Below, piece after piece: positions 10,299-18,150 of a stretch of DNA of 64,000 nucleotides. The DNA is from Sediminispirochaeta smaragdinae DSM 11293 (GTDB lineage Bacteria > Spirochaetota > Spirochaetia > DSM-16054 > Sediminispirochaetaceae). The stretch lies in the NCBI RefSeq assembly GCF_000143985.1, contig NC_014364.1, positions 3,720,001 to 3,784,000 of the forward strand, written 5' to 3'. Both the position numbers and the translations under genes were made by a program. Numbering within the stretch: position 1 is the first letter of the stretch; each line of letters begins with the position of its first letter. A model generated the notes under the pieces. The model was given only the letters and a program-made list of their open reading frames with translations, was not told the DNA's origin and did not search any database.

Positions 10299-10622
10299 TT
10301 ATCGCAAATTTCTCTTTATCAATATATCTTCGATATTCCTTCTTCCATCTATTAAAGCCAATATCAGCACTTTCTTCCCTTCCATCCTGTACATCAATCG
10401 CCAGGGACGTATTATCATCTCACGATATTTTACTATATTTTCATTTTGTAATTCAGGGATTATTCTTCCCTGTTCGGAACATAATTCCAATTTTCCTGCT
10501 GTTTCCTTGATTCTTTCATATTGCTTTATTGCTGTAGGTACAGAATCAAAAGAAATATACTCGATTATCTCATTCAAATCCTTTAAAACTGGTTCTGTCC
10601 AAATCACTTCTTGCTTATTCAT
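10299..10622 (-). CDS. ParE/RelE-superfamily toxin
   Basis: 107-residue small basic protein of the plasmid-stabilisation (ParE/RelE) fold. Visible marks are WTEPVLKDLNEIIEYI at the N-terminus, an internal helix with AIKQYERI, then VKYREMIIRPWRLMYRMEGKKVLI and the C-terminal DGRRNIEDIL, the family's usual ending. It lies 2 bp downstream of the Phd/YefM-like antitoxin gene, a common operon layout. Whether it acts on mRNA at the ribosome or on gyrase cannot be told from sequence. Confidence 0.85.
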   Translation of the reverse strand: MNKQEVIWTEPVLKDLNEIIEYISFDSVPTAIKQYERIKETAGKLELCSEQGRIIPELQNENIVKYREMIIRPWRLMYRMEGKKVLILALIDGRRNIEDILIKRNLR

Positions 10623-10624
10623 TT

Positions 10625-10912
10625 CTATTCTTTTTCTTTCATTTTATTCAGCTTATTCTCCATCATGTCGAAAACGTCCTTTTGACTATAAACTTTTCCA
10701 TCTTCAGCAGCTTTTTCCCCATCAGCAAGGATTTTCAATATTCCAAGGCTATTCCGCATATCCTGGTATGATTCGGTATCTAAAAGAACGGCTTTTGCTT
10801 CTCCGTTTTGAGTTATCACAATCGGATTGTGAGTATCATTAACTCGTTTCAGCATATCAGCAGCATTTGTCTTTATATACGATATTGGTTTGATATCTTC
10901 TTTCAAATTCAT
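10625..10912 (-). CDS. Phd/YefM-family antitoxin
   Basis: 95 residues. The N-terminal part (ISYIKTNAADMLKRVNDTHNPIVITQNGEAKAVLLDTESYQDM in pieces) is the Phd/YefM DNA-binding fold, with the typical phrase PIVITQNGEAKAVL. The C-terminal third is charged and probably wraps the toxin. It precedes the ParE/RelE toxin gene by 2 bp and should autoregulate the pair through the dyad upstream. Confidence 0.88.
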   Translation of the reverse strand: MNLKEDIKPISYIKTNAADMLKRVNDTHNPIVITQNGEAKAVLLDTESYQDMRNSLGILKILADGEKAAEDGKVYSQKDVFDMMENKLNKMKEKE

Positions 10913-12854: not shown

Positions 12855-13940
12855 TCAATACCGCACCTCTATCCCCATTTCCTTTAGAAATCGTGTAGCG
12901 GTGGAAACCGTATTACGATATTCCAGGTGGTCTCGGTAATCCAAGGCTTGATGCATGTACCAGCTTCCCTTATATGGGGGCTCTCTTGTGATATGGATGC
13001 CTCCGATCTCATTGCCTCCCCCTGCCGCAACCCAAAGGGGGATATCGTCATAACTCCATCCGGCAGCAGGGCCGATACGGATATCCCGCAAGACCAGACG
13101 CATCACGGCTATGATTCGCGCACCTTCCATAGCCGAGCAGCGTGGATGCTCCGTCATGGGGATACCAGTAAAGGGGAAAAACCGACTAACATAGACACTC
13201 TTCAGGTTCGGGTACTGTCGAATAAAGAACATAAAATCAACATAATCTTCATAGCGACTTTTCGTCACCTTTCCCCCGTTGACAATGGCACAATCGTCTT
13301 TGCAATCCGTACATCCGACTCCGGCCAACAATCCGCTTCCCAGTTCGAGACCTGCTTCACAGACCATCCGGCAAAGCTTTTCCTTTTCCTCGAAGCTGTC
13401 TCCCGGTTTCACCTCGTCAAAAAGCTTTCGGTTGATCGTTTCGAAGGAAGCACCGATGCGTGTCACCCCCAGGTTTTTCAGCTCAATAATAGACTCCATG
13501 GACAATGCGGCCCCGCAATTGACGGTAATGGTGGAATCCGCATCTGCCTCGCGGCGGATTGTCTCTACGATTTCAACCATCTCTCTTCCGTCGCTGCCTA
13601 AAGTGGTTCCTGCACTCAGATGATAGTCACGAACGCCATGTTCCTTGAGATAGCGGGCAGCCCGCAAGATCTCTTCCATCGATAGAGGCTCTTTCGGTTG
13701 CGTCCAGTAAGGACAGTACAGGCACAGCGGCTGAAGATTACAGGTAAGCACACTGGCAATACCTCCCGTCCACCGAAAGGTTGTACCAAGGAGCTTATTT
13801 CGTACCAGGCTGGCTGTCTTAAAGAGTTCCTGGGCGGCAGAAAATTCTTCGCTTTCGCGGAACAAAAGAAGAGCTTCGTCTCTATCGATAGCCTGTTCCG
13901 CGGCCTTTTCCAACACATCGGAAAAACGTCTATCTTCCAT
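12855..13940 (-). CDS. Radical SAM protein with CX5CX2C motif (BioB/HydE/HmdB-like)
   Basis: 361-residue radical SAM enzyme with BioB-like domain layout. The cluster-binding cysteines are C67, C73 and C76 (TCNLQPLCLYCPYW), so CX5CX2C rather than the canonical CX3CX2C. That spacing was described for HmdB, involved in the FeGP cofactor of Hmd hydrogenase. Further on are YHLSAGTTLGSDG (SAM-contact region) and a second cysteine group, CTDCKDDC, near residue 215, which could bind another cluster. It is 3 bp after the binding lipoprotein gene, in a cluster with a DUF364 protein and a molybdate/tungstate-type transporter. That makes a role in a metal or organometallic cofactor plausible. The reaction is unknown, and biotin synthase is unlikely. 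Confidence 0.8.
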   Translation of the reverse strand: MEDRRFSDVLEKAAEQAIDRDEALLLFRESEEFSAAQELFKTASLVRNKLLGTTFRWTGGIASVLTCNLQPLCLYCPYWTQPKEPLSMEEILRAARYLKEHGVRDYHLSAGTTLGSDGREMVEIVETIRREADADSTITVNCGAALSMESIIELKNLGVTRIGASFETINRKLFDEVKPGDSFEEKEKLCRMVCEAGLELGSGLLAGVGCTDCKDDCAIVNGGKVTKSRYEDYVDFMFFIRQYPNLKSVYVSRFFPFTGIPMTEHPRCSAMEGARIIAVMRLVLRDIRIGPAAGWSYDDIPLWVAAGGGNEIGGIHITREPPYKGSWYMHQALDYRDHLEYRNTVSTATRFLKEMGIEVRY

Positions 13941-13943
13941 AAT

Positions 13944-15017
13944 CTACTGCTCCTGAAGGATTTCCTCGCTGGTCAGCGAGTCGTTTCGATAGAAGAGGGA
14001 ATAAAAGCTTTTACACTCGTTCACCACATCAAAACCAACGGTATCCGGATAGAGGGTCTCGGCCACCCATCCCAGGCTCATTAAGGACATGATCCCGTCA
14101 AGTGCCGCATATGCAGGAGAGGCATAGACCCGTTGGCTTTTTACCGCGGAGACCTGGGCCCATTGCGGATTGGAAAGAATAGCCTCACGTGTATCCGCTG
14201 TCTTGGTAATAATTACCTGCGGGTCCCAAAGCAGTACCTGTTCGAGGGAAATGGCAACGTGCTCATCGGTTGCTTTCATGCTGCTGCCATCATCCGTCGT
14301 TGCATAGTCGATGCCACCGGCAAGGGTGATAATGGAGGACATGACCGTTGCCCTGCCTACTGTCGAAAGAGGCCCGTCGTGGCTGGCATAGTAGACCCTC
14401 AAACGTTGTTCATTCGGAACAAGGGCTACCTCTTCGGTAATCTTTGCAATGATGTTGTGCCAGTAATCCGCAAGCGTATTTCCGCGCTCTGTATTTCCCA
14501 AAAGATCACCCATGAACCTGAAAGAAGCCTCGTAATCCTGTAGCGTATCCTTCGATATGGCGACGACGGGAATATTCACCTGTTTCTGGAGATCCTCCAA
14601 CTTGGGATCCTTGGTCATGGAAACGATAACATCGGGCCGGAGAGACAATAATTGCTCGGGATCAACGGCATCAAAAAAGACCGGCACCTCCGGTTTCTCC
14701 ATCAGCCTTTTGATTTCAGCATCGGGGAACGGCATTCTTCCTCCCTTAAGGTTCATGGTAAAAACCCGAGAGCGGGAAGCCATTTTGTCGGGATCGAGCG
14801 CCCACACCATATAGTCGGGAATGGGATGTAAACAGACAACCGTGTTGATTTCCGTTGGGAGGGAAACCGTACGATCAGCAAGGTCGCTTATCGTCCGACG
14901 TTCCATTTGCACAGCCGTAGATGCATCGTCTGTTTTTCCGGAACAAGCGAAACACAACAGCATCACAAGAGATGCTGCCGACAGAACAAGAGCGCATGAA
15001 AATCTTTTTCCAGTCAC
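13944..15017 (-). CDS. Siderophore/cobalamin-type ABC substrate-binding lipoprotein
   Basis: 357 residues of the FepB/BtuF class (Peripla_BP_2). The N-terminus is a lipoprotein-like signal with a cysteine at 25 (LLCFACSGK). The lipobox is loose, as is common in spirochaetes. Family stretches include PTEINTVVCLHPIPDYMVWAL in pieces, LLSLRPDVIVSMT, FMGDLLGNTERG, and WDPQVIITK. The start is GTG 15017 behind AAAGGAG. A dedicated promoter and a 38-bp dyad lie upstream, and the radical SAM gene follows at once. No FecCD-type permease is beside it, so it may deliver to a distant permease or act as a sensor. The ligand (iron chelate, corrinoid or another metal complex) is unknown. Confidence 0.85.
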   Translation of the reverse strand: MTGKRFSCALVLSAASLVMLLCFACSGKTDDASTAVQMERRTISDLADRTVSLPTEINTVVCLHPIPDYMVWALDPDKMASRSRVFTMNLKGGRMPFPDAEIKRLMEKPEVPVFFDAVDPEQLLSLRPDVIVSMTKDPKLEDLQKQVNIPVVAISKDTLQDYEASFRFMGDLLGNTERGNTLADYWHNIIAKITEEVALVPNEQRLRVYYASHDGPLSTVGRATVMSSIITLAGGIDYATTDDGSSMKATDEHVAISLEQVLLWDPQVIITKTADTREAILSNPQWAQVSAVKSQRVYASPAYAALDGIMSLMSLGWVAETLYPDTVGFDVVNECKSFYSLFYRNDSLTSEEILQEQ

Positions 15018-15029
15018 TGAGAGTTCTCC

Positions 15030-15082
15030 TTTTAGCCATTATATATATGTATATATAATGGCTAAAAGTCGGAATCTGTCAA
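15030..15082 (-). promoter_or_regulatory. Promoter with 38-bp dyad before the binding lipoprotein/radical SAM genes
   Basis: A perfect 18-bp inverted repeat, arms 15030-15047 and 15050-15067 with TG between; each arm reads TTTTAGCCATTATATATA. Minus-strand TTGACA lies at 15077-15082 and an AT-rich -10 (ATTATA/TTATAT, 17-18 spacing) falls inside the dyad. The dyad ends at the GGAG ribosome site of the lipoprotein gene. No T-run follows, so an operator fits better than a terminator. The inner TTATATA...TATATAA resembles ModE-type sites, but that is only a resemblance. Confidence 0.7.
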
Positions 15083-15112
15083 TATGACTACCAAAACAGA
15101 TGAGAAACGTGT

Positions 15113-15871
15113 CTACATGGAGCAGAAACACCAGCGTTTCAGGCCGAAAAGTTCGGCGGTCCCTGCTATAGTGGTACCAAAGAAGACGACAGGTCTCGCA
15201 AGATCCAAAAATCGTACGATCGAACCGTTTGCAAGGGTACTTCCGGTGCACAGGATGAAATCAGCCCATTCAATCACCCTTTCAAAGTCGTCGCTACCAT
15301 CTTCGATCGTTACCCCGTGACGGACGCTTCCGATATTGGCGGGATTAAGATCAAGGACCCGCAGTCGGCATACGGGTGAGAGGTGTTCAAGAAGAGCAGG
15401 CTGGAAGCCTATAAGGGCCACCCGATCATCGGCGTGAAAGGCTTTGATCCGCTGAGCAAATTCATCACCACAGCGCTCGGGGCCGTCGTCTTTGCAGTGG
15501 ACCGTCCCCTCTGTCCGACCAAGGCTGCGCATCACCGCATTGAGAGAGGCGATAAAAAGCCCCCGGGCATGAGAATCCCCGGTAAGATCGAGATCCAGAA
15601 CATCCTCAAGGGTTCCTTCAAAGCTCGAAGGGGAATCGGTAAATGCCTGCCCGTATGCGTTACGGTACTGGGCCTGGAGAAGGATCTCTTTTCCCGTAAG
15701 AATCGGGAAATCCTTCCTGCGGGTTCTGCCGATCGCTTCATCCGGACTCAAGCCCCGGGCCGTGATCCGTACAGGATCCCTGGCGATCCCCTCGGATTCA
15801 ACCAGAGAGCTGAAACGTTCCTGCAATTTGTGATAAAAGGTTTCAATATCCCTATCTGTTATTGTTCCCAC
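15113..15871 (-). CDS. DUF4213/DUF364 domain protein (putative heavy-metal chelation)
   Basis: 252 residues. The N-terminal part, to about 110, fits DUF4213 (enolase-N-like). The rest fits DUF364, a Rossmann-like domain annotated as putative heavy-metal chelation. The phrase TVHCKDDGPERCGDEFA near residue 122 is characteristic, with two cysteines. VALIGFQPALLEHL and LDLNPANIG follow, then DFILCTGSTLANGS. The start is GTG 15871 with GGAGG upstream. It is 18 bp after the permease gene. Proteins of this family often lie near metal ABC transporters. Its activity is not known. Confidence 0.82.
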   Translation of the reverse strand: MGTITDRDIETFYHKLQERFSSLVESEGIARDPVRITARGLSPDEAIGRTRRKDFPILTGKEILLQAQYRNAYGQAFTDSPSSFEGTLEDVLDLDLTGDSHARGLFIASLNAVMRSLGRTEGTVHCKDDGPERCGDEFAQRIKAFHADDRVALIGFQPALLEHLSPVCRLRVLDLNPANIGSVRHGVTIEDGSDDFERVIEWADFILCTGSTLANGSIVRFLDLARPVVFFGTTIAGTAELFGLKRWCFCSM

Positions 15872-15889
15872 TGTCGGCCTCCTCCAGGG

Positions 15890-16582
15890 CTACTCCCACG
15901 AGCGCATCCTGGTTATTTTTGTAACGATCAATGAAATAATACCAAGCATTCCCGCAAGAACAAAGGCCCGGTTAAAATCCCCAACAAAAACCGAATTATA
16001 CACCTCGAGGGCGATGGTATTTGTGCGCCCGATGATATTCCCCCCAAGCATCAGGGTGATGCCGACATCCCCGAGGCTCCGGGCAATACCGAGGAAGAGC
16101 CCCGTTACGATTCCGCGGCGAAGGAGGGGAAGCACAACACGAAAAAAGGTGGTGCGTTTTGACTTTCCAAGCATATAGGCGGCTTCAATGTATCCTTCGA
16201 TCTCATTCCGAACCGCAGCCTGGACCGTCTTGACCATAAGAGGGAGCCCGGAAATAAATCCGGCGAAGGCAACGCCCCAAAAACTGAAGACAAGGCTGAT
16301 TCCGGAAACACTCTTTAGAAGAGCGCCAAAAGGACCATTTCTACCGAAGATCACCAGCAGGATAAAGCCGGTTGCTATGGGAGGAAATACAAGGGGAAGG
16401 GAAACCAAAAAATCGAGGATGGCGGCCCCTCCGCCCTTTTTTCGCCCGAGATAATAGCCGAGGGGGATGCCGATAACCGCCAAAGCGGGAACAATGCAAA
16501 GCAGAACCCGAAGGCTTAAGGAGACAGGCAACATCACCCCCGGGACCATAACCGCGTCTAAAAAGGAACGAAGGGTATACAT
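15890..16582 (-). CDS. Molybdate/tungstate-type ABC transporter permease
   Basis: 230-residue inner-membrane protein with about five to six hydrophobic helices. The cytoplasmic EAA loop EAAYMLGKSKRTTFFRVVLPL near residue 135 docks the ATPase. PLVFPPIATGFILL and GDVGITLMLGGNI are typical of ModB/WtpB/TupB permeases. It begins 1 bp after the binding-protein stop and belongs to the leftward ATPase - binding protein - permease - DUF364 transcript. The oxyanion (molybdate, tungstate or other) cannot be fixed from sequence. Confidence 0.88.
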   Translation of the reverse strand: MYTLRSFLDAVMVPGVMLPVSLSLRVLLCIVPALAVIGIPLGYYLGRKKGGGAAILDFLVSLPLVFPPIATGFILLVIFGRNGPFGALLKSVSGISLVFSFWGVAFAGFISGLPLMVKTVQAAVRNEIEGYIEAAYMLGKSKRTTFFRVVLPLLRRGIVTGLFLGIARSLGDVGITLMLGGNIIGRTNTIALEVYNSVFVGDFNRAFVLAGMLGIISLIVTKITRMRSWE

Positions 16583-16583
16583 G

Positions 16584-17312
16584 CTACAGTCCGTGTCGTT
16601 TTACGATCTCCCGGGCCTGCGGCGAATCGAGGAATTCGCCGAAACGAACCGTTGCATCACCGGCAGGGGCGTCCGGCATACTTCTGGCAACGATGTAGAT
16701 GGGGCTGTAATAGCTCTCGGGAACATCAACGTAACCGGCGATCTTCTCTTTAATCGCAAGCACATCGGTCAGATTTATAAAACCGAAGTCGACCTCCCCA
16801 CTGATCAGATAGGCGGAAACCTGGGGTACGGTACCAACCTGTATCAGCTTGTCCGCCACCTTATCCGCAAGGCCGCTATGTTCCAGGTATTCGGTTGCGG
16901 CAATGCCGTAGATAGCCATTTTGGGGTCCGGCAAGGCAATGCGATCGACGTCCGCGGCCGTCAGCCTGCCAAGATCCGCAGGCCCGGCATCCTTTGCGGC
17001 CGCAAGCACCAATCGTCCGTTGCCGACAATGTACTCCTGATCGAAGGGAAGCTTTACCTTATCGAAGAAGCTTTTATCTCCCACCACAAGATCGACCACG
17101 CCGCTTCTCTTCGCCTGGGTGGTGACCTGCCCCATGTTGCCGTAGATGTGTTCGACGGTGATGCCGGTCTTGCTGGTGAACAGCTGGCTCAGATCATCGA
17201 CAAGGGCCCGGTAGCCGGCACCTGCGGCAATCGTCATGCTTTCGGCGCTCACCGAGCCAATCACCGTCACAATCGCCAAGACGATCAGCACAATAGTTTT
17301 TCCACGCTTCAT
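16584..17312 (-). CDS. Molybdate/tungstate-type ABC substrate-binding protein (ModA-like)
   Basis: 242 residues with a signal peptide (MKRGKTIVLIVLAIVTVIGSVSA, then ESMTIAAGAG). I start at ATG 17312 behind AAGGAGAAAG; the open frame continues 50 codons further into the ATPase gene and is not needed. ModA-like features are AAGAGYRALVDDLSQLF, HIYGNMGQVTTQ, DLVVGDKSFFDK and IALPDPKMAIYGIAA, plus the C-terminal VDFGFINLTDV. It is located between the ATPase and permease genes. Confidence 0.86.
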   Translation of the reverse strand: MKRGKTIVLIVLAIVTVIGSVSAESMTIAAGAGYRALVDDLSQLFTSKTGITVEHIYGNMGQVTTQAKRSGVVDLVVGDKSFFDKVKLPFDQEYIVGNGRLVLAAAKDAGPADLGRLTAADVDRIALPDPKMAIYGIAATEYLEHSGLADKVADKLIQVGTVPQVSAYLISGEVDFGFINLTDVLAIKEKIAGYVDVPESYYSPIYIVARSMPDAPAGDATVRFGEFLDSPQAREIVKRHGL

Positions 17313-17325
17313 TTCTTTCTCCTTA

Positions 17326-18030
17326 TTATCGCCGTGCAAAAACGGCGTTGCGTTCCAGGTACTCAAGCTGGCGATCGAGCCAGGCCCTATCCTCCCTCCC
17401 CTCGTTGATGGCAAGGATCCTGTCGGCATAGCGGAGGGCGTTCGAAAGGTCGTGGGTGACATGAATAATCGGTATCTTTCGTTCTCTGCCGACCTTGATA
17501 ATCATCTCCTGAAGGATGATGCGGTTTTCAATATCGAGAGCGGAAAATGGTTCGTCCAAAAGCAGCATATTGGGGGACATGGCAAGGATACGGCAGAGGG
17601 CCGCACGCTGTCGCTCTCCCCCCGAGATCTTATCGGGGCGACGATCGGCAAGATGAGCGATTCCGCTCGCCTCAAGGAGCTCCATGGGATCGGGACCGCC
17701 GTTATGGGCAAAGGCAAGGTTCTCCCGGATCGTCATATGAGGAAAGAGGGTATACTCTTGGGTGACAAGTCCGACCCGACGCCCCTGCGGAGGAAGGTGT
17801 ATGTGCGCCTGCTTATCGAAAAAAACGGTATCGCCAAGTCGAATAAAGCCTTCGCCTGGGCGCATGAAACCGGCAATTATCCGTAACAGTGTTGTTTTAC
17901 CGGCTCCTGATGGTCCGACAACCGCAAGGACCTCGCCCGGTCGACACGAAAAGGATAGTTCCACGGTAAAGCGATCGAGCTTCGTACCGATTTCCATCTC
18001 GAATTCAGGGAACGCTGCTTGTGCTGTCAA
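17326..18030 (-). CDS. Molybdate/tungstate-type ABC transporter ATPase (ModC-like, short)
   Basis: 234-residue ABC ATPase with Walker A GPSGAGKTT, Q-loop VTQEYTLFPHMT, signature ISGGERQRAAL, Walker B LLLDEPFSALD and H-loop HVTHD. The C-terminal TOBE domain of full ModC (about 350 residues) is absent. The start is TTG 18030 with AAGGAG 10 bases upstream. First gene of the leftward cluster, divergent from a MarR gene 143 bp away. Confidence 0.87.
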   Translation of the reverse strand: MTAQAAFPEFEMEIGTKLDRFTVELSFSCRPGEVLAVVGPSGAGKTTLLRIIAGFMRPGEGFIRLGDTVFFDKQAHIHLPPQGRRVGLVTQEYTLFPHMTIRENLAFAHNGGPDPMELLEASGIAHLADRRPDKISGGERQRAALCRILAMSPNMLLLDEPFSALDIENRIILQEMIIKVGRERKIPIIHVTHDLSNALRYADRILAINEGREDRAWLDRQLEYLERNAVFARR

Positions 18031-18108
18031 TATAGAGAAGCTCCTTCACGCTTAGATGATCACTCTATACTACCATTATCCTTCACAACACACAATGGCA
18101 ATGCGACA

Positions 18109-18150
18109 TTGACAAAAAAGTCGGCATACAGTATTTTATTAGCCGGCTAA
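18109..18150 (+). promoter_or_regulatory. Promoter and palindromic operator of the MarR-ABC exporter operon
   Basis: TTGACA (18109-18114), 17-base spacer, TATTTT (18132-18137). The perfect 12-bp palindrome TTAGCCGGCTAA (18139-18150) spans the expected start point. This is the usual place for MarR autorepression. Confidence 0.7.

Follow-up and report, generated by a model that had tools for sequence, protein, structure and literature searches.

In a 64,000-nucleotide stretch of the Sediminispirochaeta smaragdinae DSM 11293 genome (hereafter the window; the genome is a single contig of 4.65 Mb), we identified a two-gene operon encoding a binding lipoprotein and a radical S-adenosylmethionine (SAM) protein related to HcgA/HmdB, which, judging from its predicted operator, very probably belongs to a ModE-type regulon responding to molybdenum and tungsten (Mo/W). 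This membership is accepted because the operator box is shared across operons and genomes and by an Escherichia coli control, and because the spirochaete encodes a candidate ModE-type helix-turn-helix (HTH) protein. The pairing of the radical SAM protein with a siderophore-class importer is conserved, and its pairing with modABC and DUF364 genes is particular to the spirochaete genome. The operon forms one end of a run of six leftward genes at 12855-18030, packed as closely as an earlier note on this DNA had reported (intergenic gaps of 13, 1, 18, 95 and 3 bp), in which modC-, modA- and modB-like genes and a DUF364 gene are near-contiguous and are separated from the pair by the 95-bp break. 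No description of this operon was found in literature on HmdB, DUF364 and ModE combinations.

The break (15018-15112), which the earlier note had read as regulated, is AT-rich (32.6% GC) and contains a perfect ModE-type box, CATTATAT-N8-ATATAATG (core CCATTATAT-N8-ATATAATGG), at 15036-15061, with the exact box match at 15037-15060. The box lies within a 40-bp inverted repeat and overlaps the second hexamer of the promoter-like site of the lipoprotein/radical SAM pair; alternative second hexamers lie in a TATATA run. Neither shuffles of the window nor ten Markov shuffles of 275 kb yielded an exact match. Across the genome we recovered two exact core sites, one with a single mismatch and two convincing sites with two mismatches, and a reversed-pattern control gave three sites against seven at up to three mismatches. 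The second exact box precedes a methyltransferase-DUF364-PBP2-FecCD-FecE operon and also sits between this operon and mnmE, while the two-mismatch boxes lie 102 bp before modA of a canonical modABC near nif genes, and before a PBP2(lipoprotein)-MoeA operon. The single-mismatch box (L050:9212-9237, at ~2.01421 Mb) is followed within ~80 bp by two hairpins and T-runs, with no clear gene for ~400 bp, and it is possible that it heads a Mo-regulated small RNA. Before the modCAB genes of the window only a three-mismatch site (18074-18097) was found, and this is suggestive only, since chance alone predicts about 1.5 sites of this quality per 64 kb. A scan of the leaders at Rfam gathering thresholds found no RNA element.

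In five archaeal genomes, too, the lipoprotein/radical SAM operon has the same box upstream of it. In each of the four Methanosarcinaceae loci, CATTATGT-N8-ACATAAC[G/A] lies ~280-330 bp ahead of the lipoprotein gene (two of these loci have another box farther upstream), and an exact box lies upstream of the radical SAM-PBP2 pair of L037, a 36-37%-identical cousin; the archaeal boxes stand far upstream (~230-330 bp). In archaeal genomes with a box on the pair, the pattern also precedes modABC, vnf/anf-type nitrogenase genes, FmdE-FwdA and PBP2-FecCD operons. We additionally noted that the leaders from box to operon in L011 (8160-8622) and L037 (3041-3407) are ~85% identical, although their radical SAM genes are much less alike, and this segment may have been exchanged as a promoter cassette or may encode a conserved RNA; the L011-L014 loci had no Rfam match. 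In a true hcg cluster (L101:6177-6200), an exact box lies ~40-63 bp upstream of a DUF4198 gene and ~890 bp upstream of hcgA; the box is therefore not limited to the radical SAM clade without hcg partners.

In Methanosarcinales, modABC is under ModE control (PMC9765008). The spirochaete system resembles the ModE regulons of E. coli and Methanosarcinales in its operator (CRTTATRT-N8-AYATAAYG) and its modABC targets, a candidate ModE-type HTH gene is present, and the E. coli modA operator CGTTATATTGTCGCCTACATAACG matches the pattern exactly, the consensus having been written with that operator in mind. It differs in that the candidate regulator, a protein of 118 amino acids encoded at ~1070690 of the genome, is HTH-only and falls under the TIGR00637 cutoff (64.8 bits against 98.5), with 33% identity to E. 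coli ModE across a stretch of 66 residues. No HcgA-like radical SAM operon was found among ModE targets in the literature searched.

The distribution of the box also bears on a plainer explanation, in which ordinary iron-siderophore or corrinoid uptake genes lie beside modABC by chance, under a box that is coincidental or serves another regulator. The Peripla_BP_2 (PBP2) and FecCD families consist mostly of siderophore, heme and B12 transporters, and distant relatives of the pair adjoin tetrapyrrole-type (CobN, L036) and CbiM/CbiQ-type (L090) genes. However, we consider this explanation quite improbable, given the shuffling results, the occurrence of this box at modABC in bacteria and archaea alike and at E. 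coli modA, and its retention upstream of orthologues in the other domain.

The best curated model for the radical SAM protein was TIGR03957 (HmdB/HcgA; residues 19-290), with an equivalog cutoff of 320.9 bits and a score of 519.5 bits for a member from an hcg cluster, compared with 150 for the window protein. Matches to the BioB and HydE models were far weaker (65 and 42 bits, cutoffs 225 and 255), as was that to PylB. The CX5CX2C motif, recognised in the earlier note as having the HmdB spacing, was found without variation in each of the 34 relatives collected, true HcgA/HmdB included (five sequences belong to true hcg clusters that include hmd genes, Hmd being profile-confirmed for one), and the CX3CX2C spacing was absent from the window protein. 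An AlphaFold2 model (predicted local distance difference test, pLDDT, 86.8) has a BioB/HydE-type fold, with HydE, PylB and BioB as the nearest solved folds at ~20% identity. HcgA itself has a CX5CX2C motif and forms the pyridinol precursor, a substituted pyridinol serving as an N/O iron ligand, from an unknown precursor (PMC10100467).

The window protein thus shares motif, fold type and nearest model with HcgA/HmdB, but it scores below half the cutoff, is without hcg or hmd partners, and is paired with a binding lipoprotein under a ModE-type operator. Scores, context and motif led us to reject true HmdB, BioB and HydE as its identity. A true HmdB/HcgA making the iron-guanylylpyridinol (FeGP) cofactor would agree with the best family model and the identical cysteine spacing, but is extremely unlikely given the low score, a position in the tree apart from hcg-cluster sequences, and the lack of Hmd (PF03201) in the spirochaete genome and in four archaeal hosts in a search whose positive control worked. 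No hcg genes were seen among its neighbours in the window, and use of FeGP in the spirochaete is refuted unless an unrecognised Hmd exists.

A further cysteine group, CTDCKDDC (C210, C213 and C217; residues 210-217), had been put forward in the earlier note as a possible second cluster site. We found that it lies inside a 15-residue insertion that is missing from all four relatives at 61-63% identity, and that is modelled as disordered, mostly at pLDDT below 50 (residues 212-221 and 223-225). A conserved second cluster site is therefore not supported, and we dropped the group as a candidate auxiliary cluster.

The closest relatives found are proteins of Methanosarcina and Methanolobus (Methanosarcinaceae), 61-63% identical to that of the window, and family members occur in 4 of 101 Methanosarcinaceae genomes sampled. 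Profile searches covered Spirochaetota and Halobacteriota (393 genomes of the latter). The S. smaragdinae protein was the sole homologue among 296 Spirochaetota genomes, with none in the other 295, and no relatives were found on plasmids or in viral contigs. A scan of a genome collection by exact peptide seeds returned only the four Methanosarcinaceae loci, and is not informative on absence from other phyla. In the tree, whose context groups were labelled from their own gene neighbourhoods, the hcg-cluster sequences and a context-free group form separate clades (each 100/100), the window protein groups with those of Methanosarcinaceae (100/99) and this group with L037 (100/99), and the box-bearing radical SAMs without hcg partners form a single clade (100/99). 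The patchy distribution of the sequences suggests that the gene is shared by the spirochaete and Methanosarcinaceae via horizontal transfer, in either direction.

The gene neighbourhood is retained alongside the enzyme. The four Methanosarcinaceae loci are arranged as lipoprotein, radical SAM (overlapping by ~4 bp), FecCD permease and FecE-type ATPase; thus, the lipoprotein without a permease that the earlier note remarked on is a feature of the spirochaete operon and not of the methanogens. The Halobacteriota search identified more radical SAM-PBP2-FecCD-FecE operons (L091-L095, and L109 with its radical SAM truncated at the contig end), some of them containing an O-methyltransferase and a cupin gene in addition, and one locus two DUF364 genes. 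Of the 22 members that fall outside the hcg and context-free clades, 15 have a PBP2 or FecCD gene within 6 kb, and the remaining seven are on short contigs or adjoin methyltransferases or transporters of other kinds; none of the 11 members of those two clades has such a neighbour, and on these counts we regard the pairing as conserved. Of the neighbourhood that the earlier note expected to recur, the lipoprotein/radical SAM pair did so, but co-occurrence of the radical SAM with DUF364 is weak, being seen in the window and in one archaeal locus (L089). A different archaeal cluster (L036:3016-16992) contains about six PBP2 genes in a run, an HcgA-like radical SAM, NifH/NifDK-like genes and a CobN-type gene, and is suggestive of a nitrogenase-like or tetrapyrrole system. 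At L090:4139-10719, genes of a CbiM/CbiQ-type energy-coupling factor transporter flank an HcgA-like radical SAM, as another importer pairing.

The lipoprotein is a class III binding protein, with 4pag, 4ovk, 4hn9, MolA (HI_1472) and iron-binding proteins including YiuA as neighbours in sequence and fold, and shares 47-49% identity with the lipoprotein that accompanies the enzyme in Methanosarcina and Methanolobus. MolA, a solved relative, binds molybdate and tungstate (PMC4031551), so binding of Mo/W by the lipoprotein is plausible from its sequence. Compared with the type II molybdate/tungstate importer MolBC-A (HI1470-1472), the system shares the Peripla_BP_2 lipoprotein and, in the archaeal operons, the FecCD and FecE genes that follow, but the spirochaete operon is without permease and ATPase genes, a radical SAM gene is added, and identity to MolA is ~23%.

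We tentatively explain the pair as a Mo/W-responsive operon in which an HcgA paralogue would make or remodel a small organic ligand, with a type II importer handling it, and we rank this explanation first, although we give it somewhat less than an even chance. Synthesis of an organic Mo/W ligand is proposed because of the analogy with HcgA, the expression inferred for Mo shortage and the adjacent binding lipoprotein. The ModE-type regulator would probably repress the operon when metal is sufficient, and under shortage the lipoprotein may capture molybdate, tungstate or a chelate of either. The cargo would be imported by a FecCD-type permease, encoded in the same operon in the methanogens and perhaps by another box-controlled FecCD-FecE operon in the spirochaete. 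The radical SAM protein may make a small aromatic ligand with N/O donors, comparable to the HcgA pyridinol, to capture, buffer or deliver the metal, and further modification of this ligand may fall to methyltransferase and DUF364 proteins from elsewhere in the regulon. The earlier note's core idea of a metal-linked, HmdB-related radical SAM system wired to importers stands, narrowed to Mo/W because of the shared operator, while nothing in our results shows the organometallic product it envisaged. Several observations weigh against ligand synthesis: the lipoprotein resembles siderophore binders just as closely as MolA, no permease is encoded with the spirochaete pair, a box occurs near the true hcg cluster of L101, and the distant members in Archaeoglobus-like loci and L036 have no box and may serve another ligand. 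A broader proposal, that bacterial and archaeal HcgA-family radical SAMs build an undescribed organic Mo/W ligand, pyridinol-like or other, in Mo shortage under ModE control, and that this ligand is recovered by MolA/FecCD-type importers, as an anaerobic molybdophore or Mo-ligand system spread by gene transfer, is doubtful but conceivable.

A second radical SAM family, with an AmmeMemoRadiSam-like N-terminus and 590-634 amino acids, was identified in L128:827-2596, L129:1917-3689, L133:1813-3585, L138:1829-3601 and L140:2970-4874. Its residues ~375-577 match the C-lobe of PBP2 binding proteins, and it is apparently a fusion of radical SAM and binding lobe, found in box-controlled PBP2-type operons in four archaeal genomes and beside vnf-type genes in a fifth. 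Through this C-lobe, radical SAM chemistry is tied to the class of ligands that these binding proteins handle.

Such a fusion in box-controlled operons would also agree with salvage, our second-ranked explanation, in which the HcgA-like enzyme opens or remodels an imported organic complex of Mo/W or another metal, freeing the metal or converting a foreign cofactor. The repeated encoding of the enzyme beside binding proteins and importers fits this, as does an importer without obvious export genes (no search aimed at metallophore export or synthetase genes was made), but HcgA, the nearest characterised relative, is biosynthetic, and we hold salvage to be rather unlikely. Ranked third, and unlikely, is maturation of a cofactor, in which the enzyme would modify a Mo/W enzyme's cofactor, of pterin or nitrogenase type, or aid an alternative enzyme in Mo shortage, with the lipoprotein just supplying metal. 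The box does precede nitrogenase, fmd-type and PBP2-MoeA genes, and the spirochaete genome has nif; however, we saw no Mo/W enzyme or maturation gene in the operon in any of the six box-bearing genomes, and the lipoprotein is always present.

Features of the window at and around the operon are listed below.

Table. Features at the lipoprotein/radical SAM locus, in window positions
Feature	Position	Strand	Remarks
HcgA/HmdB-like radical SAM protein, 361 amino acids	12855..13940	-	PF04055 56.5 bits; TIGR03957 150 bits; CX5CX2C = C67, C73, C76
MolA/siderophore-class binding lipoprotein (Peripla_BP_2), 357 amino acids	13944..15017	-	PF01497 76 bits; putative lipobox cysteine 22
Inverted repeat, 40 bp, holding ModE-type box	15029..15068		19-bp arms, 2-bp centre
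Sigma-70-like promoter (TTGACA, 16 bp, CATTAT)	15055..15082	-	10/12 consensus matches; consensus match only
DUF364 protein, 252 amino acids	15113..15871	-	PF04016 44 bits
ModB-like permease	15890..16582	-	TIGR02141 172.5 bits (cutoff 182.6)
ModA-like binding protein	16584..17312	-	TIGR01256 81.9 bits (cutoff 62.5); ATG after ribosome-binding site
ModC-like ATPase, short, 234 amino acids	17326..18030	-	TIGR02142 179.9 bits (cutoff 285)
Weak candidate ModE-type box, 3 mismatches	18074..18097		44 bp before modC

For the importer of the window (15890-18030), ModA thus exceeds its model cutoff and ModB and ModC fall under theirs; Pfam matches of the ModC-like protein are of ATPase type only, with no TOBE domain reported. 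The neighbouring protein, which the earlier note assigned to DUF4213/DUF364, is a divergent DUF364 member (112-148 bits for the three other copies in the genome) in which PF04016 alone is above cutoff and the DUF4213 half was undetected. Its position beside modABC-like genes resembles that in the DUF364-associated Mo/W/V transporters of the Dhaf4260 family (PMC2954201), but here the radical SAM gene itself shows no consistent link with DUF364; at another place in the spirochaete genome, the same box controls a further combination of DUF364 and a PBP2-FecCD importer, as predicted from its position. The earlier note saw no hydrogenase or nitrogenase genes; for nitrogenase this is true of the window, and Hmd is absent from the whole genome, but nifH, nifI1/I2, nifDKEN and nifB-type genes are present at ~3.21-3.22 Mb. 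Close to the locus we additionally identified a ParE/Phd-type toxin-antitoxin pair (10299-10912) and a palindrome, TTAGCCGGCTAA (18139-18150), a probable autoregulatory operator immediately upstream of a MarR-type regulator and two ATP-binding cassette exporter genes.

The two-gene unit shared by the spirochaete and some methanogens, placed under a molybdenum-type switch, points to an undescribed form of molybdenum/tungsten acquisition or handling. HcgA paralogues in a predicted molybdenum regulon in two domains, beside metal-binding lipoproteins, point to new organic metal chemistry, for which the ModE box, a soluble enzyme, the lipoprotein and culturable hosts offer direct handles. They suggest a route of Mo/W acquisition in anaerobes, in which this acquisition can limit nitrogen fixation and methanogenesis.

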